Of a DNA stretch of 64,000 nt, positions 29,434 to 61,951 are shown in pieces. This DNA comes from Aurantiochytrium sp. KH105 (taxonomy: Eukaryota; Sar; Bigyra; Thraustochytrida; Thraustochytriidae). The notes beneath the pieces were generated by a model. It was not told the DNA's origin and made no database searches. It worked only from the letters and a program-made list of their open reading frames with translations. The position numbers and the translations under genes were made by a program. The first letter of the stretch is position 1; each line of letters begins with the position of its first letter. The stretch is taken from contig BGKB01000033.1 in assembly GCA_003116975.1 (NCBI GenBank), positions 310,001 through 374,000 on the forward strand. The letters run 5' to 3'.

Positions 29434-30130
29434 CTCAGTTTCGATGGTGCCTCCAAACGCGTCGCGTGGTACTGCTGCGTGTAGTAGGCTTCGTGGTGGT
29501 GACAATTGTCCGTCCACTCTTCGAGAACTTCTTTTCGACCCCAATCGCGACGTCTGCGCGAAGTTGCCTGCCCCAGACGGAGACGGCGCCGCGACAGCGG
29601 ACCTCCGCCAGAGGGATGCGCTGTGACGTGCGCGCGCTCGTGGCTCGTCGAGCCCCGCGCGGTCTCCAGATAGATCTCTGCGCCAGTTGCTCGTTTGCGC
29701 AAGCTCAACTCAACTATCAATTTTTTGGGACGGAAATGGAAACGGAGGTCACGCTTCTCTCCTTCTGACAGTGTGAGTCATTTCGCAGCGGTTCCGTCGG
29801 TGTCAGCGAAGCGCATTTGTTCGCCACCAAATCTGAAACGATGGGGCGTTCCTGAGAAGAGATTTCTGGTAGAGCTCGAGATAGAGAGAGATGAGCTGGC
29901 AAGCCAGCGCCTCTACTGCCAGAGGTGAGTGACTCACTCTAGACTGACAGTGAGAATGGGTTGATCAAGAACAGAAACGCCGTGAGATAATAAATAGGCT
30001 ATGACTGACTCGGACTCTGCTCTATGATTTAATCAGAGCGCCAAAAGAATTAGGCTTCACAATGGTGTAGTGTCACCTGCGAGCGGAAATGGATGGTGTA
30101 TGCCAGCGTTTGCTGTAATAAAAACTAAGT
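29434..30130. other. intergenic region upstream of bZIP paralogue 2
   Basis: No gene seen. Holds the expected promoter of paralogue 2 and the 3' end of paralogue 3. Confidence 0.5.
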
Positions 30131-31675
30131 TTAGTCTTGAATGGAGTTCAAAACTCCCACGAGCGAGCTCATCAGCTCTGAAGCCATGCTACCAGGGCTC
30201 AGATCTTGATTGAGGATGTCTCTTTCATTGCTGGAGACTGCAAAACCTTTGTCCATCAAAGGCAGCGAAATCAGTATTGTCCACAGGCAGCCCTCCCCCC
30301 CCGGCGCGTGGCGCAGCACATGACCTTCAATCAGTGGCTCACCGATTCGATGTACTCCTTTTTCGCGAGGAAGGAGACCGGCGTCTTCTTTGGACGTTCC
30401 GCTACAAATAATCAAAGCGCTATATGGTTCTTTAGTACGCTCGAGTACACAGTCACGGCCTGACTCTCGGGCGATCCGCGCCTCGTTTACTGCTTGGCAA
30501 CATCCTTGCAATGACCCAGATGCATCCTCTTCTGTATTCCTGGCGCAAGATTGTTGCCTACGCGATGCAGGGAACGCAGCTCCAGTAAAGGCTGTGCTCG
30601 TCTTACGCGAAATGGCAGTGATGCAGTCGCGTATCCTGGCCTCTCCTTCCTGAAACTCTTCCTTGTAATGAAAGACACGAAAGTCTTCTCCGAATTCGCC
30701 TCGAAATTTGTCAAAACCAGTCTCGATTTCAGAAACAGAGACTTTGACGTCGTTTGGCTCGAAGACGGATTCTGCGTATGATTTGAGAAAAAGCTCCTCG
30801 GTTGTCCATATTTTCCATATCTTCCCACCCAGTTCGTCCACGCTTTCGGGCCGAAGAGGCATCTCGATTCGCGCGTTGATGCGCTTGGCCGTTTGCGCAT
30901 CGCACCCAAGAGGAAGAGGCTGCATGGCCATCCGAGATTTTTGGTATGTCCCATCGTGCGTAAGTGTGTCCATCGTGGACCATGTCCAAGACGAATCAGC
31001 CATGCTGGTGAACATGAGTCCGACAATTTGGCCAATAGCGCTCTCAGTGCCCTTGTGGAGAAGCCTGAACTGTTCTTCTGGAGTGAGACGAGGCACCGCA
31101 CTCGTGGCGTCAATAATTGTACGGATAAAAGCCTTGTGTTTTCGAATTTCGACACGAAGTAGCTTGTTTTCCATTTCTAAATTTGTTGACCCTGTATCGC
31201 GAAAGGTTTGGACTTCGGTCTGCAACTGAGCAATACGGCTGAGGTAGATCTCGCGTTCTAGTTCGAGCTCCTTGTTTCGTTTATGAAGCGCTTCGCGCTC
31301 ACGTTTGCGTTTGGCACGTGTTACGCGACTCGCAGCAGCAACGGCTGCACGGCGTCGACTCTTCTGTTCCTCCGACTCCCCCGCGCTGTTGGGAGGGGTC
31401 TTAGGCGGCAAATATCGCGTATCCTTCACGCTTTTACTACCTTGGTCATTGTCATGATTACTCGCAGTGGCGGGAACAGCTTCGTGGCTTCCTACTTTGG
31501 GACTTTCCCCGTTCTCCTCGGCCTCGGGCGAATCGCCTGCGGCGAGAAGTTTGAGGTCCTCATCGCTAAAGACAAGGCTATAGGGGAAGAAGTCATTCTC
31601 GAAAAAGGTCTCTTGCTCTTCCTCCTCGCCCTCGTCGATGCCTCCCTCTTGCACCTCCCGACCGAGAAAGTCCAT
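30131..31675 (-). CDS. bZIP-like transcription factor, paralogue 3 of 5
   Basis: 514 residues from ATG at 31673-31675; the upstream frame opens with GTG. Belongs to the second subgroup with paralogues 4 and 5. N-terminal motif ETFFENDFFPYSLVFSDEDL (22-41) preceded by an acidic run. Basic region SRRRAAVAAASRVTRAKRKR (106-125) with Val 112 at the invariant-Asn position; zipper in EAL, KEL, IYL, AQL. Then NLEMENKLLRVEIRKHKAF shared with paralogues 4 and 5, LTPEEQFRLLHKG and the C-terminal LIEGHVLRHAPGGEGCLWT. Somewhat more diverged than the other two in the second half. Confidence 0.82.
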   Translation of the reverse strand: MDFLGREVQEGGIDEGEEEEQETFFENDFFPYSLVFSDEDLKLLAAGDSPEAEENGESPKVGSHEAVPATASNHDNDQGSKSVKDTRYLPPKTPPNSAGESEEQKSRRRAAVAAASRVTRAKRKREREALHKRNKELELEREIYLSRIAQLQTEVQTFRDTGSTNLEMENKLLRVEIRKHKAFIRTIIDATSAVPRLTPEEQFRLLHKGTESAIGQIVGLMFTSMADSSWTWSTMDTLTHDGTYQKSRMAMQPLPLGCDAQTAKRINARIEMPLRPESVDELGGKIWKIWTTEELFLKSYAESVFEPNDVKVSVSEIETGFDKFRGEFGEDFRVFHYKEEFQEGEARIRDCITAISRKTSTAFTGAAFPASRRQQSCARNTEEDASGSLQGCCQAVNEARIARESGRDCVLERTKEPYSALIICSGTSKEDAGLLPREKGVHRIGEPLIEGHVLRHAPGGEGCLWTILISLPLMDKGFAVSSNERDILNQDLSPGSMASELMSSLVGVLNSIQD

Positions 31676-32085
31676 CTTTTCGGAGAAGACGATGTCTTGG
31701 ACGACTTTCAAACGCGCTGTTATACTTGCGACGCGCGACGCGCGCCCTGCAGCCGAGCGAGAGCGAAAGCACGAGGGAGGGCGTGGACTCCCTCGCCTCA
31801 CGTCCGCTTCTTGCTTGTGCGTGTCACTCTGCAGACCCAGCCAGGTCGTCAGCCAGCCAGCCAGCGAGCCAGCCAGGAGATAAAAGCCTATACATGCGTC
31901 AATTCCAAGTCATGCCCGAAAGTGATGTCGTTAGTAGTGGTGAGGATGATGGGAATGGTATTTTTTTAATGGTGATAGCGAACGAAAGGCCTACGATTGA
32001 AGACAGGAAATAAACCAAAAAATTGCCGTTTTCTGCAAAAGTAAAGTCTTGTACGTCAATTGGCCTTGTTGGGTCCTAGGCCAAG
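31676..32085. other. intergenic region upstream of bZIP paralogue 3
   Basis: Contains a CAGC-rich run (about 31849-31878) and a TAGGCCTA-like site (31987-31993). No gene seen. Confidence 0.5.
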
Positions 32086-33660
32086 CTAATCCATTTCATT
32101 GAGCATGACAAGGAGTTCATTGAGCATGCCAACCGTCGTTTCGCCAGGAGCAAAATCCTTCGTGAACATTGTTCCGTCAGCACTGCATCCTGCAAAACCT
32201 TCGTCCAAAAGCGGGAGCGACACAAAATTGGTCCAAAGACACCCTTTGCCGCCTGGTCCTCGACGGAGCACATGGCCTTCGATGAGCGGCTCGCCGATGC
32301 GATGTACGCCCTCTTGGATAGGTTTCAGCCCCACGTCGTCCTTGGATGTTGAGCTGCAGATGATGAATGCAGCACCCGGGTCAAGATGCACACGACGAAA
32401 CAAGCTTTTGGATGTATCGTCTGTAGATGACTCGCTGCCTTTGCATTTGTCTTCTCCGTCGGCAGATGAATTTGTGCCACCATCGTGGCCCTGAAAAGGC
32501 GTAAGATCAAGAAGAGTGCCATCGCCTGATAATGGAGAAGGAAAGGCAGAGGAAGTCAACGCTTTCGAGACCCGCCAGGTGACAGCATTAATGCAGTCGC
32601 GCGATTTCTCGGATCCATCTGAAAATTTCTCCTTGTAGTGAAAAACGCGCAAGTCGGGATCTGTAGCATCACGAAGCTTTTCGAATCCCGTATCCAGCTC
32701 TTCCAGCGATACGGTGACGCCTTGTGGCTCGAATAGCGGTCTCTTATAGAGACTGACGAAGGGGTCCTCGTTGGTCCAGATCGTCCATAATTTCTGCGCT
32801 AGCTCTTCGATGCTTTCCGGGCGGAGAGGCAGATCGATGCGTCCATTCACGCGCTTGGTCGTCTGCGCAGAGCAGCCCAGAGGGAGAGGTTGAACGCCGG
32901 TGTGGCACGGAATCTGCGTCCCTTCGGGGCCTTGGAGAGTAAGGGTGGACCACGTCCAGGAGGCATCAGCCATACTTGTAAACATGAGACCAACGATTTG
33001 GCTCACGGCGCTCTCTGTACCCTTGCGAAAAAGTCTGTACCGCTCTTCGGGCGTCAGTCGAGGTACTGCTCGCGTTGCCTCGACAATTGTGCGGATGAAG
33101 GCCTTGTGTTTGCGAATTTCCACACGAAGTAGCTTGTTTTCCATCTCAAGGTTGGCAGATCCTGCATCGCGAAAAGCTTGAACCTCAGTTTGCAGTCGGG
33201 CGATACGGCTGAGGTAAATCTCCCGCTCTTTTTCTAGCTCTTTGTTCCGCACCTGGAGCGCCTCGCGTTCACGCTTGCGCTTGGCGCGCGTTGCGCGGCT
33301 CGCGGCGGCTACAATGGCTCGGCGACGATTTTTTTCCTCTTCAGACTCCTCTGATTCTACTTTTGCGCCAGTGGTTTTCTTGGCTGCAGGCTGAGGGTTC
33401 TCGCTTGTACCATTTGGTTTCTTTGCAACCTGGAGATCGGCAGTACTCGCTTCATCGCTGCAAAATTGCTTGTCGGTTACCACGGATGCGGACTCTGATG
33501 ATGATTCGAGTGAATCTTCACTGCTAGCCAAGAACTGGAGATCATCTTCTCCAAGTACGAGGTCTGCTGGATAGAAATCGTCCTCGAAAAAGATGTTCTC
33601 TGTTTCCTCAGCGGCTTGGTCGCCCTGGACGTCTTTCCAGGACAGCTCGAAGAACTCCAT
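32086..33660 (-). CDS. bZIP-like transcription factor, paralogue 4 of 5
   Basis: 524 residues from ATG at 33658-33660; the long upstream extension opens with TTG and is basic low-complexity, so it is not used. N-terminal motif NIFFEDDFYPADLVLGEDDL (22-41). Basic region NRRRAIVAAASRATRAKRKR (111-130) with Val 117 at the invariant-Asn position; zipper in EAL, KEL, IYL, ARL. The post-zipper segment NLEMENKLLRVEIRKHKAF is identical to paralogues 3 and 5. C-terminal domain with MFTSMADASWTWSTL, DLRVFHYKEKFSDGSEKSRD and LIEGHVLRRGPGGKGCLWT. Closest relative appears to be paralogue 5. Confidence 0.83.
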   Translation of the reverse strand: MEFFELSWKDVQGDQAAEETENIFFEDDFYPADLVLGEDDLQFLASSEDSLESSSESASVVTDKQFCSDEASTADLQVAKKPNGTSENPQPAAKKTTGAKVESEESEEEKNRRRAIVAAASRATRAKRKREREALQVRNKELEKEREIYLSRIARLQTEVQAFRDAGSANLEMENKLLRVEIRKHKAFIRTIVEATRAVPRLTPEERYRLFRKGTESAVSQIVGLMFTSMADASWTWSTLTLQGPEGTQIPCHTGVQPLPLGCSAQTTKRVNGRIDLPLRPESIEELAQKLWTIWTNEDPFVSLYKRPLFEPQGVTVSLEELDTGFEKLRDATDPDLRVFHYKEKFSDGSEKSRDCINAVTWRVSKALTSSAFPSPLSGDGTLLDLTPFQGHDGGTNSSADGEDKCKGSESSTDDTSKSLFRRVHLDPGAAFIICSSTSKDDVGLKPIQEGVHRIGEPLIEGHVLRRGPGGKGCLWTNFVSLPLLDEGFAGCSADGTMFTKDFAPGETTVGMLNELLVMLNEMD

Positions 33661-34041
33661 GCTGGTCTTGCTCTCGCGAAACCTTCCTTCCTTCTTTCCT
33701 TCCCTCGCTCGCTTGATCCGCACACCGTGGTCAAGACGTCGCGTACGTCCGCGCAACCGCGCGCCCGTACGTGCGCGCCTGAACAGCTGCGTTGGACAGC
33801 CAACTCGTTGCGCGTGAGCCCCCCGCCGAATGCACGTGCGACACGAACTTCTACGCTCGTGTTGCGTTTTGCTTTTGTTACCGAATCGAACGAATCGAAT
33901 GGAAATAGGCCTAAAATACGAACGCGAAAGCGTTTTGCAATGAAAGCGGGGTAGGAAGTCGGGCACATTGTCCGTCAAGTCCCGCCTCGCGCAAGATAGA
34001 TAGAAGATGAAAAGAGGAAAGAGTTATATTTTACGCGTGAT
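33661..34041. other. intergenic region upstream of bZIP paralogue 4
   Basis: Contains a TAGGCCTA site at 33906-33913. No gene seen. Confidence 0.5.
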
Positions 34042-35679
34042 TCAATCCATTTCATTGATCATGGCAATCAAAGAATTGAACAACTTGACACTCACTTCTC
34101 CCAAGGCGAATTCGTCTGACAATAGCCCTCCATCGACGCTGCAGCCAGCAAAGCCAGTGTCCAAAAGGGGAAGCGAAACGAAATCGGTCCAATAGCACCC
34201 CTTACCGTCAGGTCCACTTCGCAGCACGTGACCCTCGATCAGTGGCTCGTTGATGCGATGTACCCCCTCTTCGGGAGGTTGAAGACCTGCGTCTTCCTTC
34301 GAGGTCGAGCTGCAAATGATGAATGCGTCGTCTGGATCGAGCTGGGCACCCTGAATGAGTGCATTAGGGGCTTTACCTACACATCCGCTGCTTGCAAGAT
34401 GCTCTTCTTCTTCTTCTTCTTCTTCTTCCTCTCCTTTAATTCTGGAAGAAGATCCAGGCAGCTTTGCTTCAGCAGGAATGTCTCCACTTGCCGCGTCATG
34501 AGGCTCTTCCAGAGAGCTCATCTCGCCAACAGTACTTTCGGTTAGAGAATGAGGGGATGGAAATGCGGATGCGCCAAGTGCTTTCGTCGTTTGCCAAGTG
34601 ACAGCGTTAATACAGTCGCGCACTTTTGCGGGTCCATCTTGAAAGTGTTCCTTGTAATGGAAAACGCGCAAATCGGGATCCTTTTCATCGCGAAGCTCGT
34701 CAAAGCCAGTCTTTAATTCCACAGATGACATCTTGACACCATGAGGCTCGTAGAAAGATTCCGAGTAAACTTTCGAGTACACGTTTGGATCGATCCAAAT
34801 GTTCCACAGTTTCTGACCTAGCTCTTTAATACTTTCCGGGCGGAGGGGCATGTCGATACGCGCGTTGATTCGTTTGGCCGTTTGTGCAGTACAACCAAGA
34901 GGTAAAAGCTGCACGCCTATCCTGCAGGGACCTTGTGCATTATCATGCTGTAAAAGATCAACGATGGACCAAGTCCACGATGGATCAGCCATGCTGGTGA
35001 ACATGAGACCGACGACTTGGCTGACTGCGCTTTCAGCGCCCCTGCGAAAGAGTCTGTACCGCTCTTCGAGCGTCATTTGAGGCACAGCGCGCGTAGCGTT
35101 GACAATCGTGCGGATAAAGGCCTTATGTTTGCGGATTTCTACACGAAGCAGCTTATTTTCCATTTCAAGATTGGTAGATCCCGCGTCCCGGAACGCCTGG
35201 ACCTCGGTTTGCAGCCGGGCAATGCGGCTAAGGTAGATTTCTCGTTCCTGTTCGAGCTCCTTGTTTCGCACTTGGAGCGCCTCTCTCTCGCGCTTGCGTT
35301 TGGCGCGTGTCGCGCGGCTTGCAGCGGCGACAACGGCACGACGTCGATTTTTAACCTCTTCTGAGTCCTCTGTTTTGATGTTGGTTTCGTTTTCTGTTTC
35401 TGCGCATCGCGTCTCGCTCCTAGTAGTAGGAGGAGTGGAGGTGGTAGTATCGAGAGTACCGAGTTGTTCAGTTTCGGCATCTTGTGCTTGGTATAGTGAC
35501 TCGTCAGTCTCTTCCGCGAAACCTTCGGACGAGTCACTGCTGGTCAACAATTGTAGATCGTCTTCGTTGAGAACAAGGCTGGCAGGGAAAAAGTCATTCT
35601 TAAAAAAAGTTTCCTCGGCCACGTCGCTCTCCTCTTCGGCTCCCCAAGCCAAAGGCTCGTTGCACTCCAAGTCCTCCAT
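34042..35679 (-). CDS. bZIP-like transcription factor, paralogue 5 of 5
   Basis: 545 residues from ATG at 35677-35679. N-terminal motif ETFFKNDFFPASLVLNEDDL (23-42). Basic region NRRRAVVAAASRATRAKRKR (111-130) with Val 117 at the invariant-Asn position; zipper leucines 135 and 142, Tyr 149, Leu 156, Phe 163. C-terminal domain as in its sisters (LIEGHVLRSGPDGKGCYWT), interrupted by a Glu run encoded by a CTT/TCT-type repeat near 34400-34430. Divergent from the ABC transporter gene across 566 bp. Last member of the array; no sixth copy is seen beyond it. Confidence 0.83.
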   Translation of the reverse strand: MEDLECNEPLAWGAEEESDVAEETFFKNDFFPASLVLNEDDLQLLTSSDSSEGFAEETDESLYQAQDAETEQLGTLDTTTSTPPTTRSETRCAETENETNIKTEDSEEVKNRRRAVVAAASRATRAKRKREREALQVRNKELEQEREIYLSRIARLQTEVQAFRDAGSTNLEMENKLLRVEIRKHKAFIRTIVNATRAVPQMTLEERYRLFRRGAESAVSQVVGLMFTSMADPSWTWSIVDLLQHDNAQGPCRIGVQLLPLGCTAQTAKRINARIDMPLRPESIKELGQKLWNIWIDPNVYSKVYSESFYEPHGVKMSSVELKTGFDELRDEKDPDLRVFHYKEHFQDGPAKVRDCINAVTWQTTKALGASAFPSPHSLTESTVGEMSSLEEPHDAASGDIPAEAKLPGSSSRIKGEEEEEEEEEEHLASSGCVGKAPNALIQGAQLDPDDAFIICSSTSKEDAGLQPPEEGVHRINEPLIEGHVLRSGPDGKGCYWTDFVSLPLLDTGFAGCSVDGGLLSDEFALGEVSVKLFNSLIAMINEMD

Positions 35680-36245
35680 GGTTGTTTCTGCTTTCTCACC
35701 TCTCCCTTCGCTACGGCTTCAACTGCAGCAGCAGCAGCAGCAGCAGCTTGCAGGGCGCGAAGCAGCTTCCCTTTCCCTCCCTTGCGTTCGCCTCCGTGTG
35801 TGCGTCCTTGCGTGCTTTGCACGCGCGCGCAAAGCGCCGACCAAGACAAGAGGTCGGTGGTCGCGCGAGTCTTGCGAGTTTGCGATCTTCTTGTTTGCGA
35901 CTCTGCGACCGCGGCTTTGCATAAACTTCAAGTTCCCTCTCTCCATTCCATCACCGTCGCGAGACTTCAACGCAAGGCAGGCCAAGGCAAGGCAAGGCGA
36001 GACCATCGCCCTCGGCCGGACGCAGGGAAGCCTTCGCGACGCGAGCTTGCTCGTCTCGGCGAAGGCGACGGAACCGCCGAGCCGAGAGGAGCGAGGTGGC
36101 GATCGCAGAACAGTGAAGAAGAATGGGGATTTGAAAAAGAAGAAGAGGAAGCGGGCGAATCAAGAAGAAGGAGGAGAAGAAGAAGTCGAGGCGAGGCAAC
36201 AAATCCCGAATCGAGGTCGATCCGCTGCGCTTCGTCGCGCGGGGC
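35680..36245. promoter_or_regulatory. divergent intergenic region, bZIP paralogue 5 and ABC transporter
   Basis: Promoters of both divergent genes must lie here. Contains a GCA run (35722-35747), AGGCA repeats near 35975-35998, and an AGAAG-rich stretch near 36115-36195 just before the ABC start. No gene seen. Confidence 0.5.
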
Positions 36246-41258: not shown

Positions 41259-41733
41259 NNNNNNNNNNNNNNNNNNNNNNNNNNNNNNNNNNNNNNNNNN
41301 NNNNNNNNNNNNNNNNNNNNNNNNNNNNNNNNNNNNNNNNNNNNNNNNNNNNNNNNNNNNNNNNNNNNNNNNNNNNNNNNNNNNNNNNNNNNNNNNNNNN
41401 NNNNNNNNNNNNNNNNNNNNNNNNNNNNNNNNNNNNNNNNNNNNNNNNNNNNNNNNNNNNNNNNNNNNNNNNNNNNNNNNNNNNNNNNNNNNNNNNNNNN
41501 NNNNNNNNNNNNNNNNNNNNNNNNNNNNNNNNNNNNNNNNNNNNNNNNNNNNNNNNNNNNNNNNNNNNNNNNNNNNNNNNNNNNNNNNNNNNNNNNNNNN
41601 NNNNNNNNNNNNNNNNNNNNNNNNNNNNNNNNNNNNNNNNNNNNNNNNNNNNNNNNNNNNNNNNNNNNNNNNNNNNNNNNNNNNNNNNNNNNNNNNNNNN
41701 NNNNNNNNNNNNNNNNNNNNNNNNNNNNNNNNN
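41259..41733. other. assembly gap of 475 N
   Basis: Unresolved bases inside the transposon. The gap size may be an estimate. Confidence 1.
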
Positions 41734-41942
41734 GCAAACTTGCAGAGGGGTGCGGGGGCATCGTGGGAACGATCTGGCCAATCGGCAAGATTTAAAATTG
41801 AATAGAAGTATTTAATGCAATGCCTCGCGTGTTTGCCAGAGATTTCGTTCGGTCTCACTGACCCAGCCTGCCGCCATACCGGGGAAACTATTTCGCCGAA
41901 AATTTCGTTCGGTTAGACCGAACGAAATTTAGCCAGGGTTAG

Positions 41943-43840: not shown

Positions 43841-46800
43841 CTAAAGCCTGCTGGCACGCAGCTGAAGCTCAAGAATAAGCGCCTCGAGCTCGTGCTCTTT
43901 TTGGTAGTTGCGTTGAGGGATCTCCTCGCGCACCGAACCCGTGCTCGTTGCAGAAGAACCCCCTTCGTGCGACCCGTGCCATGAAAGAGCTTCGAGGTGG
44001 TCAAACAGCTTCTTCTGCAATTCAACGTGAAATTGCTCCTTCTCTTTGCCGCCATAGTTCCACCCACTCTCCACCGCGAGGAACTTCTTGCTCTTCAGCA
44101 ATTCATTGTCTTCGTCGATGGATTCGATACCTAATGCATCATGCACATCGCGGTAGCATCCAGGTTCCAACACAATCACGACCACCTCCGCCATGCTCAT
44201 CGACGAAACGCTGCTGAGCTTCCGTTTAAGGATCGGGACAACGTTGGATTCAAACTTTCCAACAACGTATAGTTCAGGAACTCTTCGCGGCTTCTCAGGC
44301 GCCCTCATTTTGAAGCCTGCGAGTTTGGCCAGTTCGCGAAGCATGGCTTCTTCTTCAAAGTGACGGCGACGATAAGGGATGATGTAGCACTTTTCCAGCG
44401 CCTCTTGAGCTGTCTCATAATACTTCTTGTAATTGTTCGCTGAATCGTGGACAGAAATGTCGTCATCACCGTCTGCGGCGCTCGCGCTGAGATCGAAAAG
44501 TGAGCTCGAGAGATCTTCTTCCAGCTTCCTTCGCTCGAGCCTGCGCTTGAACTCTTTCGCTTTCTTCCTCGCCTTCCTTGCTTCCTTCTTGCAGCTTTTC
44601 GCAAACTCCTCTTCATCTGTCTCGTTGGCAAGATCTTGCAGCATAGTCGCTCTATCCATCTCTGCCTTCGCTTGCACTTTAAGACTCTTCTCGTCCTCCT
44701 TCTCTAGGGTGTCTGGGGTCCATGGCTCGTCTTCGATCGCTCGCCAGGGACTAAAGCGCTCGTCCTCCTCTGCAAGAAAGAAGATGTGCTTCCACAGATC
44801 GCTCTCCATGCTTCTGAAGTAGTCCACGGCAAACTTGAGCTCGGCGAGACAAAAGGGCCGAAACAGGGCGTCCGTCGTCAGAACCATCACAAAGCACTGC
44901 GACGACATGACGCCACGCTGCATCGCTCCCATCGTGATGTCGAGTGCGCGCATATCGACCCACGCTGTCATCTGGTTCCGCTCGAGACCAGCGTCCAGAT
45001 CCTTGACAATACCAGCCGCCTGCTGCTGCATGTGCGACAGGAAAAAGTGGTACCTGGGCAGCTCGAGCAGATCATTCATGAGGGAAGGATTGTGATACCA
45101 TTTGTCGTCCTCTTGTCTGTTCCGTTGCGACAGTCTGAGTGTTGTTCGTATGGGATCGAAGTGCGGGCCAAGGCCCTTGAAACTTCTGTGAAGGCTCACA
45201 AGTCTGTCCTTCATCGGTCTCGCCATCTTGGTTCTGAGAGATTGTTGCCTTGACAAGCGCGTACGCTTTGACTTTGACCCAGATATGCGTCCAAACGCGC
45301 GACTTGTTCTGCGTTCAGACGCGCGCCTGCTTCCTGACTTGTGCTTCTTCCTGGACTCTCGCTGCCTCGGGTCCTCTGCAAGCGAAGCTCGCCGACTCGA
45401 GTCCTCTGCAGCTTCGCTTGAAGAATCGAACTCAGACTCCAGGATCTTGTCGAAAAAAGGATGTACCAGGATCTCAATAAGACCGAGTCGCTCCTTGGCT
45501 TTCCCGCGAAGACAAAGACGCGCTAGATCGCGGGCTGCCTCGATCTCGTTCTCACTGCCGCTCAAACCATCCTCCGCTCCACGAGCCGGTCTGTTACCGC
45601 GTCGAGCGTCTTTTCGCTTTTTGATGCGCTTCATGCGGTCTTCATCAAGACCAAGCCAGTTCATGAGCTTGCGCTTATCGTGATTGTGCACCAAATTATC
45701 ATCCGACTCGTCGACCATGAAGAGCTTGGTTCCCGAAAGCAACTGGTACAGCAACACACCAAAGCCCCATACATCCTGAGACGTGTGCCCCTTTGGCCTC
45801 TCATCGCCCTCGAAGATGCAGCGGGCAACCTCCGGGGACACGTAGCCAGTACTTGCTTTCTCGCTGACCTCGGCCCCAATCACCACAGAGGCATCGAGAT
45901 CGATCAGCTCCCACTTCTCTTCGCGATCGAGCCCTTCACCCGTCGGAGAGTCACGCCAGGCCATGGACACCATCTGCCTTCCATTCTTGTTGTCCACAAA
46001 AGTGTTTGCACTCGATGCACTTGTGCGCACCGCATTGCGCGGCTTGATATCGCCGTGGATACGACCGCTGTCGTGGAGGTTCTGTAAGGCTAATGCGATC
46101 TGGTACGCGATCTCGCGAATCTTGTCCAGATCGCGACCTGCGAATCGTTCGGTGTTGATCGCCTCGAAAAGAGATCGAGAACCACGAGGCATGACCAGAC
46201 ACATTTCCTTATCCAAGAGCTTGCGGTCCTTCTTGTTCTCGCGATTCAACAATTTCAGACATCCCTGGAGCTGGCTGCCATCTTTTGGCTCTCGCGCTTC
46301 GATTTCGCGATCGTACTGTTTTTTTTCGCGCATGATCTTGATCGCCACAGGCTTGTTGGTGCGTATATCTGTGGCAAAGTGGACGGCGCAGGTCTTGGAC
46401 TCGTGCACGGCTGGCCCCTCGGCAATCTCGTAGCGGCCGAGGTAAGTGCCGTAGTCCTTGGCCCAGGTTTTCGTCCTTTTGTTTGCAAGTGCGAGCGAGC
46501 GAGCTGATCGACCACTGGTGTCCTCTGTTCCCATCAAGAGCAAACCGTCTTGAAGAGGTAGCTTCTCAGTGATATATTCCTTCAAGAAGTCCTCCGGAAG
46601 TGCAAATTCCGTGCCACCAGGGCGGCAATCTAGCAGTGCATGAATGATCGGGACGACGTCATCATCCTCTTTTTTCTCGTCGTGCTGAAGCCAAAGTTCG
46701 TAGTCATCGAGAGGTAGTGCTAAGTCCGGATCATGAGCAACCAGCATCGACAAAAAAAATGCGAAGATGTGAGCATGTTCGCTTGCAAGATCGTGTGCAG

Positions 46801-49800
46801 CTGCCGTCCATCTCAAACCTGGCTCATCGAGAAGGTACTCGCGGATCTCTTGTACGCGCTCCGATCGAGTCAAAGGCTCCCAGATTGTCTTGCCATCCTC
46901 CTCTTCGCCAACCTTTCTGGACCAGAGGTCTCTGAAACTTAGTGGCCCTGGGATTTCGGGTATGCCACTTTGGAGATGGTCATAAGCGATAAGGAGCTTC
47001 TGTCAGCGAATTGTTAGAAACAAGCAATAGTGCGAGAGGAGACTTACAACAATGATGTCAGTGTAAAGTTCTTGTCCAGCAGACGGGCCAGATGCTCATA
47101 GCCTGCTGTGCCAATCTCGTTATCTTTGATGCTGCGCATGACGAATAATTGTGCAGTAGATGAATCCCAAAATTAGAAGAGGTGATTTGGGGGAGGCGCG
47201 ACATTTCGTTGCGTCAGTTTTGCTCATCAATCCAGACAAATAGAAATCATCTCAATCTGATGAGTGTACACATCTGCATTCGATGTAGTCGAGAGATTTT
47301 ATCCGGAAGCTGGAACTTACTGGAACGATGTCAGTGTAATATTGGCCGCCAAGCTATTAGCCAGTGACTTGGCGCCCTCGACGCCGATTTTGTTTGCTTG
47401 GAGACTGCGCGTTCCATGGCCGCATCATCAAATATAATTTGAAGAGCAATGGTGTGTTAGTTATGTCCGTCAATGAAGCCGAGGCAAGTCAGATCACTGC
47501 TGCTGCCCTTCTTTCACGCCTGCATGCATCCGCAATCAGAGCGGTCATGCGCACCCAGCTCCTCCCCACCTCCCAATCTCATAAGAATCGGACCATGAAC
47601 TTACTCTAGCGTCGTCAGCGTGCTGCTGGCCGCCAGTCCGTCAGCCAGCGCTTTGGCACCCTCAGCGCCGATCTGGTTCTCATAGAGACTGTGCGTGCCG
47701 TAGCAGCAACAAACAAAGCACACAAACGCGTAATCATGCACCAAAAAACGACCGTTTGTCAGTTCTGCCCGTCGGCATTGTCAAGCCAAGTCGAAGCCTT
47801 GCTGCCACCAGGATTGAGGTATACAATCGCGCTGTCACACAGTGCGCTCATGCGCCTGCCCGTTGATCTTGAACTTACCTCAGCGTCGTCAGCGTGCTGC
47901 TGGCCGCCAGTCCGTCAGCCAGCGCCTTGGCACCCTCATCGCCGATCTGGTTGCCACAGAGGCTGCGCGTGCCGTAGCAGCAACAAACAAAGCACACAAA
48001 CGCGTAATCATGCACAAAAAAAAGACCGTTTGTCAGTTCTGCCCGTCGGCATTGTCAAGCCAAGTCGAAGCCTTGCTGCCACCAGGATTGAGGTATACAA
48101 TCGCGCTGTCACACAGTGCGCTCATGCGCCTGCCCGTTGATCTTGAACTTACCTCAGCGTCGTCAGCGTGCTGCTGGCCGCCAGTCCGTCAGCCAGCGCC
48201 TTGGCACCCTCAGCGCCGATCCGGTTGCTTCCAAGACTGCGCGTGCCGTAGCAGCAACAAACAAAGCACACAAACGCGTAATCATGCACAAAAAAAAGAC
48301 CGTTTGTCAGTTCTGCCCGTCGGTATTGTCAAGCCAAGTCGAAGCCTTGCTTCCACCAGTATTGAGGTATACAATTGCGCTGTCACACAGTGCGCTCGTG
48401 CGCCTGCCCGATGATCTTGAACTTACTCCAGCGTCGTCAGCGTGCTGCTGGCCGCCAGTCCGTCAGCCAGCGCCTTGGCACCCTCAGCGCCGATCTGGTT
48501 GTATTCAAGACTGCGCGAACCGTAGCAGCAACAAACAAAGCACACAAACGCGTAATCATGCACCAAAAAACGACCGTTTGTCAGTTTTGCCCGTCGGCAT
48601 TGTCAAGCCAAGTCGAAGCCTTGCTGCCACCAGTATTGAGGTATACAATCGCGCTGTCACACAGTGCGCTCATGCGCCTGCCCGATGATCTTGAACTTAC
48701 TCCAGCGTCGTCAGCGTGCTGCTGGCCGCCAGCATTTTCCTGACTACTTCGGCACCCTTGTCATCAATGCTTTTCTTGCCAAGGCTGTGAAAGTGAAAGA
48801 GAAGAATATCGTCAGTCCTGATCTAGCAATCCCTGCAATTTGTGTATGATCTCTGAGAAAGTTGGGCATATCCTTTAGATCTACATCTGTACTTACTTGA
48901 GCGCTGTCAGCGTGCTGTTCTTGGAAACAGCCCTTGTAATAGCTTCCAGCCCATCGAAGCCGAACTCATTGTTACAAAGGCTGCATTACGACCAAGCTTT
49001 GCGTTAGCTTCTAATTCCGATGCGACGAAGGAAAGCATGCACAGAAGCGGTTTATCGGGACCTGTGACACTTACTTGAGCGAGGTGATCGTGGTGTTGTT
49101 GGCAAGAACTTGTGCAAGTTCTTTCGCGGACGTGTCCTCGATGTAATTTCGCGCAAGACTTTTCTTGTTGTCAATAATCTTTGTCTACTAGATCCGGCGT
49201 TCACATTCGCACAAACTTACTCGAGGGACGTGAGCGTCGTATTCGTGGCGACTGCCTCGGCCAGCGCTGTCGCGCCTGCATCATGAATGTCGTTGTTCTG
49301 TAAACTGAGGATATTAAAGATGTGGAAAGAAAAGATTAGCTGCCTGCTGCATGACTTCCGTCGAAACAACGCTCACTTTGAGAACGCGAGAGCATCTTCG
49401 TGGTGAAGCGCACTTACTTTAGATTCTCCAGCGTGCTACTTTGAGCAACCGCTACGGCCAATACTTTAGCGCCTGCATCCTCAATCCCGGCGTCTTCGAG
49501 GCTTTGTAAGTGAAGAGCAGGGTTCAGATTCTGGTTAGCTACAAGATCATCCCATCAAAGCTACTTTGCTCATGACGTACTCAATCAACGTCGCACCTCG
49601 AGCGATTTCGCGAAGTGCTCGCTGCAGTTTTACCCGCGCTGTTGCACCCAGATCCTTCAGCTCATCTTCGACGCCATCTTCAACATCCTCCTCTTCACGA
49701 CCTTTGTCGTCACCTTCGTGACCATCATTGTCATCGCCGCCATCGTAGTCATCAAGGTCGGCGACACTGCCTTCGTCGTCATCGTCGTTTACGAAGTCGT

Positions 49801-49954
49801 CTTCGCCCTTAAAACCTGACTCGTCATCGTGGAGCGCCTCCTCCTCGACCAGATCCTCTTCCTCTACCAAAGGCTCTTCCTCTTGCGCCTCCTCGGTGTT
49901 GCGTCCAGGCCTCGTGACCCTCCTCATGCGCTCGGCCATCCTCTTCATCTTCAT
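43841..49954 (-). CDS. LRR-protein kinase-TIR receptor-like protein (13 exons)
   Basis: Exons (minus strand): 49581-49954, 49418-49501, 49221-49304, 49075-49158, 48897-48980, 48701-48784, 48427-48510, 48153-48236, 47879-47962, 47605-47688, 47321-47404, 47048-47131, 43841-46931. Eleven internal exons are 84 nt, phase 2; total 1462 residues. An acidic N-terminus (about 1-124) precedes 11 ribonuclease-inhibitor-type LRRs such as LYENQIGAEGAKALADGL. The kinase (about 595-930) has VAIK (Lys 631), HGDIKPRN (Asp 727) and DLD in place of DFG (Asp 777). A basic Ser-rich linker leads to a TIR domain (about 1057-1190): YHFFLSHM, AWVDMRALD, FVMVLTTDALF, CLAEL with Glu 1130 at the NADase position. No signal peptide or membrane span, so an intracellular sensor is inferred. 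Uncertain: the first ATG (49952-49954) and the last acceptor (46932, TTTCAG), chosen because it keeps frame. Confidence 0.8.
47605..48733 (-). repeat. exact 274-bp tandem array of LRR exon plus intron
   Basis: Exon starts at 47688, 47962, 48236, 48510 and 48784 are spaced exactly 274 bp. The units are nearly identical in intron as well as exon, apart from the two to four codons at the variable LRR face (YEN, CGN, GSN, EYN) and small changes near the donor. The fifth unit matches only through about 48733. This is a recent tandem amplification within the LRR-kinase-TIR gene. Confidence 0.95.
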
Positions 49955-51035
49955 TCTCCTCACTCAGACAGCCTCCCCTTTCGCCTTCCTTCCTCCGTCA
50001 AGTCGTCGGCACGTGCCGCGTCTCTTCGTCGCTGCGCCGGACCTCGCTCGCGCGCCGCTTTCTCTTCTCTTCTCTTCTCTCCTCCGGCCTGCGCCGCGCT
50101 CGCCGCACGCCCGCCCGCCCTCTCCGTGTCTCGCTCCGTGTCTCGCTCGCTCGCTCGGCCGGTCGATCGATCGCGGTCTGTCTGTTGCTGCAGCGAGCGA
50201 GCGAGCGAGCGACAGCGAGCGGAGGCCGCGCTGTCCGAAACGATGGCTGACTGCTGCGAGTCATTCAATCATCAACCAATCAATCAAACTATCGATCGAT
50301 CGACCTGGGCCCTGCCGCGGCGAGCTCCGCGCCGCGCGCACTTCCCCGCGCAGAAGCAGTCTCTGCACCTCGCTCGGCTCTCCCTGGTTCACGCCGACGC
50401 GAACCTTGCGCGCGAGCTCCGGACGGCGGTCGCGGCGGCCGCGGCTGGCCCGAGCACGAACTCGCGCGCGAGACTTACTTCATCAAGCCCGGGTACTCAC
50501 GACAGACACGACGCACGTGCACGGCACGCGCGGCAGTAGTGGACAGAGGGGCGGATAGGGGTGCCCGGCGTCCTCGCCAACGCGCGGACTGGCCTGGCCT
50601 AGCAAGATTTCCACTCCGAGTCGGAGAACCTGCCTGGGCACGACGCGATCACGTGCGCACAGGAATTGCGGGGACGGCGCGAGGTTTGCGACAGCCACGA
50701 GGTTTGCGACAGCCGCGAGCGAGCAACAGCGCAAGGCATTCCGGATCCTACTGCTGAAACGCTCTGCTCAGACAGACGACTTCAGACCTGGGCTAGCGGG
50801 AAAGGGGGGGGGGGGGGTAACTCACTGCCGCTGAGCAGCCGGGAGAAAAGCGCAGCCGCGGAACAAACGAGCGAGCGGACCCGGTGCCGCGGAGATAGAA
50901 GCCGTAGAATACCATGAGTTTTCACCAGAGATTGGAACGAAAAGAGGGTTCTGGCATTAGAGATGAAAAGTTCCAGGCTCGCCTTGTCTACTACAAACGC
51001 GAATAAAGTGCCGAAATTATGCTGTCCTCCTCTAG
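49955..51035. other. upstream region of the LRR-kinase-TIR gene
   Basis: GC-rich, with (GAGC)n and (CTCG)n runs (50140-50160, 50195-50215), an ATCA/ATCG run near 50266-50302 and a 14-base G run (50804-50817). The promoter and possibly a further 5' exon lie here. No other gene is supported; long plus-strand frames are compositional. Confidence 0.55.
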
Positions 51036-51600
51036 CCTGCTGGCACGCAGCTGCAGCTCAAGAATAAGCGCTTTGAGCTCGTGTTCTTCCCGATAGTTGC
51101 GTCGAGGGATCCCCTCGAGCATTGACTCCATGCCCGTAGCAAAAAAATTCCTCTTCGTGCGACCCCTGCCATAAAAATGTTTCGAGGTGGTCAAACAGCT
51201 TCTTTTGCAGTTCAGCATGGAATAGCTCCTTCTCTTGGCCGCCATAGTTACACCCAATCTCCACCGCGAGAAACTTCTTGCTCTTCAGCAACTCATTGTC
51301 TTCGTCGACGGATTCGATGCTCAATGCGTCATCCTCAGAGAGATAGCATCCAGGTAATAGCACGATGACGACCACATCCGCCATTTTCATCGACGTCACG
51401 CCATTGAATTTTCGTCTTAGGTCGGGACAATGGGAGATTCGGGCACTCCAAAAACGTACCATCTCGGAATACGTCGCGGCTTCTCGGGCACACTCGTCTT
51501 GCGAGTCTTGCCATTTCGCGAAGCATGCAACTGTAAAAGTAAGCCCTGGATGTGCGGTAAGCGAGGCCGTCCGATGCAACGCAAGTTCGCGTTCACCATT
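51036..51600 (-). pseudogene. decayed copy of the 3' end of the LRR-kinase-TIR gene
   Basis: The minus strand carries VVVIVLLPGCY, ESVDEDNELLKSKKFLAVE and ELQKKLFDHLE, plus EHELKALILELQLRASRL, nearly identical to the last 150 residues of the intact gene (VVVIVLEPGCY and so on). Similarity fades upstream near 51560; kinase, LRR and most of the TIR domain are absent. Reading-frame breaks show it is not functional. It lies in the same orientation about 1.1 kb upstream of the intact gene's start, as expected from an old tandem duplication that left only a 3' remnant. Confidence 0.85.
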
Positions 51601-51878: not shown

Positions 51879-53349
51879 ATGCTTCGCGTGGAGGGCGCGC
51901 AGCTTTTCCGAGCGGTACGTTCACAGCGCGCACCTCCTTCGCCGCGAGCGCTGCGCGCGCAGCGCTCCTGGCCAAGGTCTGGGACGCCGGGGTTCGAGAG
52001 ATGGTGGGAAATGATTGGTCCCGGCGACTTGCTTGGTTGGTGGTGACAGGAGGCCGAGAGCGCGGGCTCGGAGGCCTTGCGAGCGCCTGCGCGCGCGCAA
52101 TGGAGCGAGCAAAAGACTGACGTGAGGTGGCATTGGCGCGGACGTGATACAGAGACTCACCAGCTCGATCCTGAGCAACCGGCCGGTGCTGATCGCCAAG
52201 ATCAGAGAGCTGGACGACCGGCCTGGCGTCACAGACTATGAAGTCTCCTTTGCCAAGCTCGTGGACAAACTGACCAATGGCACCGCCATTAGCATCAACG
52301 AAACAGGTACCTCCGTCACCGTGCGTCCCGGCTACATGGTTGGCGGTGCAATCGAGCACGAGTGTGAGGGTCGCGCCATTGGCTACTTTCTCGAGGGCAT
52401 TCTCCCGCTCTGCCTATTCGCAAGAGACCCTGTGGAGCTCACGCTAACAGGTGTGACGAATGATGACGTCGATATTTGCGTCGACCTCTTTGCCACCGTG
52501 ACGCTGCCTCTAGTGCGCCGTTTCGGCCTAGAGCACCCCCCCACGCTCGAAGTGTTGCGTCGAGGTCTTGCGCCTCGCGGCAAGGGCGTGGTCGTCCTTC
52601 GATCGCCCGTTGCGCGCGAACTTCGCGCAGTGCAGCTCATGGACCCGGGTTTTGTTCGCAAGGTGCGAGGTCTTGCGTACGCCGTACGCGTTTCGCCTCA
52701 ATTCGCCAACCGCATGGCAACGGAAGCCCGCGGCATTTTCAACACTCTCCTGCCCGACGTCTACATTAACACGGATCACACAAAGTCGCGCGATGTGGTG
52801 CCTGGTTTTGGCCTTTCCATTTACGCAGTGACAACGACGGGCTGCTTGCTCGGGTCCAAGCGTGCTGCCACGCGCCGGTCGCTCCTTGACAAGGGCAAGG
52901 CGAGTGCCAAAAACATTTTGGGCATCGACGACCCCGCCGCGGCTTTTCGGTCTAACAAAGAAATCGCCGCCGAAAACGACAAGGCCGCTGAAAACGAGCA
53001 AGACGATGAGACGCGTACCAAGGGGTGGAGGATACCTGGTGTCAAGGCCCAGTCTGAGCCGGAAGAGGTTGCAACGAACGTAGCCCACCAGGTCCTCGAG
53101 CAAATTGCGCAGGGCGGCTGCGTCGACGCAACACACCAGCCACTCTTGTTCATGCTCATGACACTTTGCCCAGAGGATGTGTCCAAGGCACGCGTGGGTA
53201 CTTTGACGCCGTACTCGATGCGCTACCTTCGCATGATCAAGGATTTTTTTGGTGTCACATTCCGTCTCCAGGTCGACGATGCAACGTCAACAACCTTGTG
53301 CTCGTGTGTGGGCGTGGGCTACAAGAATCTTTCGCGCAAGGTCACCTAA
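51879..53349 (+). CDS. RCL1: RNA 3'-terminal phosphate cyclase-like protein (rRNA processing), 2 exons
   Basis: Exon 1 is 51879-51914 (36 nt, MLRVEGAQLFRA), the intron 51915-52152 (GTACGT...TACAG, 238 bp), exon 2 52153-53349; 410 residues. The join restores the family's FEG..FRQRL start (here VEGAQLFRARL). Then LSNRPVLIAKIRELDDRPGV, KLVDKLTNGTAISINETGT, GVTNDDVDICVD, KVRGLAYAVRVSPQFANRM, DVYINTDHTKSRDVVPGFGLS and GGCVDATHQPLLFMLMTL follow RCL1 from yeast to human. RCL1 acts with Bms1 in early pre-rRNA cleavage in the nucleolus and lacks cyclase activity. A 70-residue Lys/Glu-rich insertion (about 250-320) is absent from animal RCL1 (373 residues). The exon-2 frame alone opens with GTG, confirming a missing first exon. 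Confidence 0.95.
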
Positions 53350-59708: not shown

Positions 59709-60649
59709 CCTCCTCCTGAACTCGCAGCGCTTGGCACACTGCCAACCACCCGCACGCAATCTTCGCGACTGCCGATGCCGCGCTGCGCTGCCCACGGATG
59801 ATCTATCTGGTGGACCCAGCTCACTTCAATTCGCAGTCAATTCCATTCCATTCCATTCGAGGCGATATCATCAATCAATCTAATCCTCCGGCACGTGTAT
59901 ATATCTATATTCTCTCTAGCCCGCAGCAGGTCGAGCGTCGAGACGAGCGAGACATGGCGATAACAGCGGCACGTGGCACATGTCACTCACTCTCTGCGCG
60001 CCACATCCCGCGTCCAAATCTCAGCTCATCTCCTCCAGGCTCTCGCCGATCGCAACGGATCAAAAAGAACCAAGGCGAACGCGTGCCGTCTTTAGGGCAG
60101 ACGGGCGGTCCTAGGGATTCTCATAGCAGACCCCTAGGGAGCGGGTACGTACGCCGTATCGTACCGCACGCGATACCGTACAAACCCTTTCCCTTTCTAG
60201 CGGCACTTGTCGCGGCGTGGGCAAGTGCGCTATCGCGGTTTGTCGCACTTGCGGGCGGCGAAAGTCGAGTCTCCAGGGGCACAGTGGCGGTGGTGGTCGT
60301 ACCGGCGGCAAGAAGTACGAATGGGACACCGCGCAGCACGTGCAGGGCTCAGTCGTGCCGGAGACAAGCAAACCCTCAAGCCGCAGACCTTCTTTCGCGC
60401 CGCGCCGCCCGAGGAAGGTCTCCGTGCGCGCTGGCCGCCGCGGGACGACGCCAAGAGGCTGGGCAGCGGCCGTCTGCGTGTCTGGACGACTGACTCGCCC
60501 GGAGCTGGGCGGGAAGAAGAACTGGACCAAGCTTGTAGCCGAGCGTGGTGGAGGAGAAGTCGCTCGAGCTTGCTCGCGCAGGGAGACCCGGAGAATCGAT
60601 CGAATCGATGGGTTACTCCACGTCGAGTACGACTTGGACGAGAACGAGC
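59709..60649. promoter_or_regulatory. divergent intergenic region, coiled-coil and ankyrin genes
   Basis: Contains TATA-like ATATATCTATAT near 59899-59911 and a GC-rich right half with several overlapping open frames (60207-60726) that look compositional. No gene supported. Promoters of both divergent genes should lie here. Confidence 0.5.
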
Positions 60650-61951
60650 ATGCGAAAGGTCCTTTCCGCCCTGGTGGTACTGGGCGTGACGTTGCTTGCA
60701 GCCCCGGCTCGAGCTACGCCGGATGAAGACCTCGTGACGGCTGCAGAAGCCGGCGACGTCGCTGGTGCCACAAGCGCAATCGCTAACGGAGCCGACGTAA
60801 ATTACGCTGTGGAGGATCAGGTCCCGGTACTTGCGCTCTGCTCTACGGTTGATGTTGCTGAAGTGCTGCTCACGAATGACAACATTGATAAGAATTTCGC
60901 CCCAGACACGAACAGCTCATTTGCAGCAGTTCACATTTTTGCATCGCGCGCCAACACAGATCTGGTCAATGCTCTGATTTCGACCTCGCCGCCAACACCG
61001 TCCCCAACGTCAGTCCTAAACGTTGACCAGCTCGAAGGCAAAGGGAAGTCGGCGCTGATGCTTGCCGCAGGCGCAACTTCTGATCTGTTGGGCTCCCCTG
61101 TAGACACAGCAGATGCCTTGCTGCAGGCAGGGGCCGACGCGACCCTGACGGTCAGCAGCACTGGTAACACAGCGATCCACTTTGCTGTCGCGGCCAAGCC
61201 CGATACTGGTGTCGCTGACACGCGCGTTGCGCTCCTCGAAAAGTTACTGAGTTATGGCGCGAGTGTAACAACGAAGAACGATGATGGACGTGGCGCCCTG
61301 CATGTGGCAAGCCAACCGAACGTGGGCAGCGGCGCAGTCGTCCAAGCTGTTCTTGCCGCTTCTGCTGCTGATATCAATGTGGCCGACACCGCTGGGGACT
61401 ACCCTGTGCACTTGGCTCTGAGGACCGCCCGAGAGACCAATGCCGCGACGGCAGAAAGCATCTTGAGCGCTTTGCTGACCGCCTCTCCCGACTTGACTGT
61501 TACGGGAAGCAACGGTCAGTCGCCTTTGCATCTTGGCGTGGCATCGGGTCAGGTCGAGCTCGTGACGGCGCTTGTGAATGCCGGCGCGCGCGACAACGTC
61601 GTGGATTCCAGCGGCGGACTGGCCATTCATGAGGCTGCAGCATACTTTGCTGTCACAGCAGCTCAGTGTTCGGAGATCACAGCCATTGCCCAAACCCTGG
61701 TCGAAAATGGTGAAGCTGATCTTGACGCCACAAACACGGCAGGTGAGACCGCGCTCGAAATTGCAGAGACAGCGCCCGAAGATCGACGATGCATTAGCCT
61801 CGAGCAGGCCCTCGGATCTTCGGTGACATCTGCACCTACTCCGCAGCCCACTCCAGCTCCCGTGGAAACACCTTCGGCGGCGACCTCGTTGCGTCCTCTG
61901 TCGACATTTTTGGCCGTCCTGATTTCTTTCCTGCTGTACAAGATGGAGTGA
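60650..61951 (+). CDS. secreted ankyrin-repeat protein with C-terminal membrane anchor signal
   Basis: 433 residues from ATG at 60650, chosen because it starts a clean signal peptide (MRKVLSALVVLGVTLLAAP, cut near ARA-TPDE); an ATG at 60608 would add 14 residues in front of it. The body is ankyrin repeats: DLVTAAEAGDVAGATSAI, GKSALMLAAGA, GNTAIHFAVAAK, GRGALHVASQP, GDYPVHLALRTA, GQSPLHLGVASGQVELV, GLAIHEAAAY. About eight repeats are visible, several slightly degenerate. The end is a Thr/Pro-rich stalk and a hydrophobic tail (TFLAVLISFLLYKME), as for a GPI signal or a single span. Ankyrin repeats outside the cell are uncommon in eukaryotes. Ligand unknown. Confidence 0.85.
   Translation: MRKVLSALVVLGVTLLAAPARATPDEDLVTAAEAGDVAGATSAIANGADVNYAVEDQVPVLALCSTVDVAEVLLTNDNIDKNFAPDTNSSFAAVHIFASRANTDLVNALISTSPPTPSPTSVLNVDQLEGKGKSALMLAAGATSDLLGSPVDTADALLQAGADATLTVSSTGNTAIHFAVAAKPDTGVADTRVALLEKLLSYGASVTTKNDDGRGALHVASQPNVGSGAVVQAVLAASAADINVADTAGDYPVHLALRTARETNAATAESILSALLTASPDLTVTGSNGQSPLHLGVASGQVELVTALVNAGARDNVVDSSGGLAIHEAAAYFAVTAAQCSEITAIAQTLVENGEADLDATNTAGETALEIAETAPEDRRCISLEQALGSSVTSAPTPQPTPAPVETPSAATSLRPLSTFLAVLISFLLYKME

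Follow-up and report, generated by a model that had tools for sequence, protein, structure and literature searches.

Little is known about immune-type receptors in single-celled eukaryotes. In plants, the TIR-NBS-LRR proteins are intracellular LRR sensors with a TIR domain, and carry NB-ARC between the TIR and the LRRs. Passages of PMC11378527 describe the brown-algal LRR-ROCO proteins, candidate immune receptors in which each LRR is a single 72-bp phase-2 exon, exon shuffling and alternative splicing occur, and positive selection acts on four concave-face sites (14, 16, 18 and 19). Tetrahymena, according to parts of PMC6564038, has tens of thousands of 90-bp phase-2 LRR exons, some fused to protein kinase domains, for which unequal crossing over, possibly with retrotransposition, has been proposed. 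The LRR receptor kinases of oomycetes have about two LRRs in the sections of PMC2939053 and PMC3268121 that describe them, and a section of PMC11747288 places LRR, TIR and kinase, in that order, on the single chain of lancelet RIPK2 homologs.

We analysed a stretch of 64,000 nucleotides of Aurantiochytrium sp. KH105 DNA (the window; contig BGKB01000033.1), in which a predicted receptor gene lies on the minus strand at 43841-49954. A sequence-only reading of this DNA had proposed that the gene joins an acidic N-terminus, LRRs, a protein kinase and a TIR domain on one soluble chain, and that it is a candidate for an undescribed intracellular receptor of immune type.

Exon structure of the receptor gene

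The gene model comprised 13 exons and 12 introns, which gave a single frame of 1,474 codons plus stop with no internal stop. All 12 introns were GT-AG and 62-200 nt long, with the donor hexamer GTACGT in intron 1 and GTAAGT in the other eleven. Exon 1 (49581-49954) carried the start codon, an acidic N-terminus (44 D/E in aa 1-105) and the beginning of the LRR region. It was followed by eleven consecutive 84-nt exons, each with AG before it and GTAAGT after it, all in phase 2 and each encoding one 28-residue LRR. These were exons 2-5 (49418-49501, 49221-49304, 49075-49158 and 48897-48980), which with introns 2-5 form an older part of the array (48784-49501), exons 6-10 (48701-48784, 48427-48510, 48153-48236, 47879-47962 and 47605-47688, together spanning 47605-48784), and exons 11 (47321-47404) and 12 (47048-47131), which span 47048-47404. 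The earlier observation that the 84-nt exons all share one phase and one frame was upheld, with 11/11 in phase 2 and 1,474 aa open. Since all LRR exons are 84 nt and in phase 2, gain, loss or skipping of any of them keeps the frame. An assembly gap of ~535 N, at about 41259-41795, lies outside the receptor gene.

This organization resembles that of the brown-algal LRR-ROCO genes in its uniform phase-2 one-LRR exons and in the diversity at concave LRR sites described below. However, the exons here are 84 nt and encode 28-residue RI-type repeats, in contrast to the 72-bp exons and 23-residue LRRs in the passages of PMC11378527, and the effector part is kinase-TIR rather than ROC-COR; the likeness is one of exon organization. 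Tetrahymena shares the uniform LRR exons, an extreme phase-2 bias, recent clonal expansion and some kinase fusions (PMC6564038, in part), but has 90-bp exons, and "TIR" occurs 0 times in the text of PMC6564038. The exon system here is of the same kind as those of brown algae and Tetrahymena and differs from them in exon length and effector part.

The last exon (43841-46967; 3,127 nt) encoded a linker, the kinase, a second linker, the TIR, an insert and a C-terminal module, followed by the stop. As kinase and TIR are both inside this one exon, the kinase-TIR fusion is independent of splicing, and only the LRR-to-kinase join needs intron 12 (46968-47047). The 1,041 stop-free codons of the exon had a chance probability of ~2e-21 at local base composition, and a hidden-intron scan for the four donor hexamers GTAAGT, GTACGT, GTGAGT and GTATGT found 0 copies within it. 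The LRR-to-kinase join hangs on a single intron with an ambiguous acceptor, which places the first base of the last exon at 46967 or, with an alternative intron end at 46932, at 46931; either keeps the phase, and the two proteins differ by 12 residues. This would suit two adjacent genes joined wrongly by the model, one made up of exons 1-12 with LRRs only and the other, for kinase and TIR, beginning within the last exon.

The codon score with which we examined this alternative had been trained elsewhere in the window, on 16 stretches totalling 8,336 codons (one stretch with a stop in its best frame). In the annotated frame the score was above zero in 11/11 LRR exons and in 19/21 50-codon blocks of the last exon, and was near zero in the low-complexity linker at aa 934-1083 (0.05, -0.08 and -0.03). 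The first 90-nt window of the last exon (from 46966) scored -0.02, that is, without coding signal, and an in-frame ATG, the first of the exon, is present at 46747, both of which favor a separate kinase-TIR gene. However, the annotated frame scored 0.31 in the 90-nt window from 46906 and 0.17 in that from 46846, both before this ATG, and 73 open codons precede it (chance 0.035). With coding signal ahead of its ATG, the last exon is unlike a gene that starts there. In addition, GTAAGT ends exon 12 as it does ten other LRR exons, just 80 nt separate exon 12 from the open frame, and an LRR-only gene would need a stop or 3' end past exon 12, where none was seen. We consider a false join of two genes quite improbable, and the LRR and kinase-TIR exons very probably form one gene. 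For the single chain proposed earlier, phase, frame and the pre-ATG coding signal are support and no proof of the predicted spliced transcript.

Domain architecture of the predicted protein

A Pfam scan of the spliced protein, in which 7 families were listed at E up to 1, identified LRR_6 (5.2e-50), Pkinase (1.8e-20) and TIR_2 (2.1e-7), all above curated cut-offs. This search had been suggested beforehand as a check, and it rejected neither the kinase nor the TIR call; together with the 44 acidic residues of the N-terminus, it confirmed the order of parts read from the minus-strand gene. The LRRs are of RI type. Among the best 60 of 82 PDB matches to them, a GALA protein ranked first (1e-45); further down were chains of ribonuclease inhibitor (7.6e-31) and of NLRP proteins, along with several proteins that, judged by name, are axonemal or leucine-rich repeat proteins. 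RI-type repeats are shared with the ribonuclease inhibitor and with the LRR domains of animal NLRs, but NACHT is absent here: NB-ARC, NACHT, Roc and COR had no Pfam match in the receptor protein.

The kinase domain (aa 627-938; 45452-46387) was assigned by the Pkinase match, which covers profile positions 14-263 of 263, and by its motifs. K643, D739 (in HGD), N744 and D789 (in DLD) are present. We take K643, D739 and D789 to be the positions of the VAIK lysine, the HRD aspartate and the DFG aspartate, with HGD and DLD as variants. The glycine loop is degenerate, and the profile match begins at position 14. A basic Ser/Arg-rich linker (aa 941-1060, with 31 K/R and 20 S of 120; 45086-45445) leads to the TIR core.

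The TIR core (aa 1074-1151; 44813-45046) matched positions 1-80 of the 122 in TIR_2 with 31.9 bits against a cut-off of 28. Leaving out the charged 126-residue insert that follows (aa 1165-1290; 44396-44773) raised the TIR_2 score from 35.3 to 35.7 bits, with 92 rather than 80 of the 122 positions covered; we do not read this as showing that sequence past the insert completes the TIR. AlphaFold models made without an alignment were poor (mean pLDDT 45.4 and 35.8) and confident only in part of this insert, where the single-sequence model showed a long helix. The C-terminal module (aa 1319-1435; 43961-44311) is without Pfam match and is conserved in a decayed upstream copy. PDB matches to the TIR were all weak (0.04-0.82) and included the NAD(+) hydrolase AbTIR (8g83). 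E1142 (44840-44842) aligned to a glutamate in 3/4 of these matches, and the fourth alignment stops before this residue. The AbTIR glutamate aligned with E1142 is presumably its catalytic residue. According to parts of PMC7075850, >70% of TIRs have a glutamate between strands C and D; this residue is critical to NADase activity where present, yet need not track activity. The receptor's TIR may cleave NAD+, the presence of E1142 being no proof of activity.

Hydropathy analysis (Kyte-Doolittle, 19-residue windows) gave a maximum mean of 1.37 across the receptor protein. No membrane segment was seen in these windows, nor a helix between LRRs and kinase, where the top window reached 1.34 (aa 500-518), nor a hydrophobic stretch in the acidic N-terminus. 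This agrees with the soluble chain proposed earlier, as far as hydropathy windows indicate. It also sets the protein apart from Toll-like receptors, which have their LRRs outside the cell and the TIR in the cytosol, and whose signal peptide and transmembrane helix were not seen here by hydropathy windows. The LRR receptor kinases of plants and oomycetes also have LRRs followed by a kinase and are present in stramenopiles, but carry a transmembrane helix between the two parts, unlike the protein described here (PMC2939053 and PMC3268121, in part). Compared with plant TIR-NBS-LRR proteins, the chain has no NB-ARC, its TIR lies towards the C-terminus and a kinase is added. The likeness to them lies in an intracellular LRR sensor and a TIR with the conserved glutamate (PMC7075850, in part).

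Among the matches listed in open-licence PMC, the order LRR-kinase-TIR was not found in published papers. As far as these matches show, the claim of an undescribed architecture held for the order of domains. It did not hold for their combination, which is not unique: the lancelet proteins, from a chordate, have the same three domain types, but with the TIR before the kinase in the passages of PMC11747288. No paper on a TIR domain in labyrinthulids was found in open-licence PMC, five searched terms were absent from PMC12258536 on thraustochytrid genomics, and the parts of PMC4053784, PMC5772912 and PMC9978483 that were consulted held nothing decisive for this receptor.

Variation among the recently duplicated repeats

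Exons 7-10 and introns 6-9 make up four repeated exon-plus-intron units of 274 nt, the intron being exactly 190 nt in each. These recent tandem duplicates extend from the 3' part of exon 6 to the 5' part of exon 10 (47638-48733, minus strand). Among the four units 12/190 intron columns were variable, with a mean difference of 0.035. The remaining exon sequence differed by 0.017 and 0.039, and a 16-nt LRR-face block, from the exon end through N9 of the next exon, had a mean difference of 0.406 with 10/16 columns variable. At the protein level, 23/28 positions were identical across repeats 7 to 10, and the x7-x8 residues were E-Y, G-S, C-G and Y-E. With all 11 repeats compared, variability was greatest at x8 (3.10 bits), x10 (2.85) and x7 (2.73).

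The variation was concentrated in the codons x5, x7, x8 and x10 of LxxLxLxxNxL, where 10/12 columns were variable compared with 16/262 elsewhere (Fisher 6e-10), x10 having joined the test set after the data were seen. We therefore also used a set fixed by the brown-algal paper, x3, x5, x7 and x8, to which we mapped sites 14, 16, 18 and 19 ourselves, the published consensus being one of 23 residues. In this set 9/12 columns were variable (3e-8), all in x5, x7 and x8; x3, itself in the a priori set, was invariant among the recent units. Columns within one codon are not independent in these column-level Fisher tests, and at the codon level the a priori test gave 3/4 replacement-variable codons against 2/24 (p = 0.011). 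pN was 0.53 at x5/x7/x8/x10 and 0.01 at the other 24 codons. pS at the same four codons was 0.49, so that dN/dS there was not clearly >1. Multi-hit codons, which add to pN and pS alike, account for this high pS, and the intron is the better reference for an argument from variation.

A receptor or scaffold of this architecture might instead act in ordinary cell signalling or in development, without an immune role; the differences between repeats would then reflect relaxed constraint, or else mosaic conversion among the LRR exons. RI-type LRRs are known also in axonemal, cytoskeletal and Ran-GAP proteins, and variable intron columns lie close to the acceptor: 3 of the 12 fall in the last 9 nt before it. 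Short conversion tracts may for this reason make part of the x-site pattern. However, relaxed constraint would hit the entire exon, yet pN at the other 24 codons is 0.01 and the introns are 3.5% different. We consider a non-immune role of this kind possible but doubtful.

In this one gene of one strain, diversifying selection and the retention of differences against homogenization may alike have produced the pattern. Differences among recent repeats gather at predicted ligand-facing LRR positions, as would be expected of a fast-changing immune-type sensor. The suggestion of an immune-type receptor thus gained evidence from ligand-face variation among recent repeats; immunity itself is a role that we still infer.

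Family turnover and proposed function

At 51010-51527, on the same (minus) strand, lies a tandem copy of the receptor gene's final 0.5 kb (its 3' end), with the frame broken, 416/528 aligned positions identical and 11 gaps. The receptor gene is therefore one member of a family, and tandem copies in that family have arisen and decayed at least once. The gene itself could be on the path of this upstream copy, decaying and with an inactive kinase, and the broken neighbor, the degenerate glycine loop and the DLD motif are consistent with such a fate. Against it stand 1,474 stop-free codons through 12 intact splice pairs, and the positive codon scores of every LRR exon and of 19/21 last-exon blocks; we regard decay as highly improbable.

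Searches for relatives covered only viruses, bacteria, archaea and plasmids, and absence from them therefore says little. No relatives of the last-exon protein, the TIR core or the kinase core were found in viral contigs, nor of the last-exon protein in genome contigs of bacteria and archaea. The last exon had no megablast match in plasmids, and tblastn against plasmids returned 1 record, a Paenibacillus PknB that matched the kinase part only. A PADLOC match to the anti-phage kinase mad6 (3.5e-26) was rejected as generic kinase similarity, as a mammalian PKA control scored 2.7e-83 on mad6. The TIR part matched PDC-S66 weakly (5.5e-4 and 1.8e-4), and the NCBIfam matches of the receptor were all far below cut-off.

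Elsewhere in the window, five consecutive ORFs on the minus strand at 24242-35718 (24242-26326, 27817-29709, 30131-31909, 32086-34023 and 34042-35718) appeared related by eye, each with a basic, heptad-like region and with C-terminal parts that resemble one another. Two of the five were scanned and matched bZIP below cut-off only; they are perhaps a tandem family of bZIP-like regulators. The plus strand carried an RNA 3'-terminal phosphate cyclase-like gene at 52126-53349 (RTC 1.4e-46, RTC_insert 5.2e-23) and an ankyrin-repeat protein at 60539-61951 (Ank_2 5.8e-24), whose hydrophobic C-terminal stretch, seen by eye, is possibly a membrane anchor. Rfam and tRNA scans of the 64-kb window gave no match.

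On balance, we favor a soluble intracellular receptor in which an exon-shuffled ligand surface drives a kinase-TIR tail. Eleven RI-type LRRs would form a curved sensor, with duplication and replacement of one-repeat exons altering its concave face. A ligand bound to this face would cluster or release the chain, and the kinase would then phosphorylate itself, for example on the Arg/Ser-rich linker, or other targets. The TIR domains would assemble and signal, possibly through NADase activity. A bolder extension, which we hold to be unlikely, is a repertoire-type system: LRR exons, skippable and renewed as 274-nt units, would be diversified and recombined or alternatively spliced into many faces, all wired to a kinase and an NAD+-cleaving TIR on one chain.

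The most interesting part of the locus, beyond the sequence-only reading, is the array of one-exon-one-LRR units with ligand-face change. The gene would be the third uniform phase-2 LRR exon system, after those of brown algae and Tetrahymena, here with variation centred on the ligand face and coupled to a kinase and a TIR on the same chain. If x5, x7 and x8 outpace the introns across strains, and if transcripts skip exons, exon-shuffled LRR sensing would be a repeated protist solution, and one independent of NB-ARC receptors.
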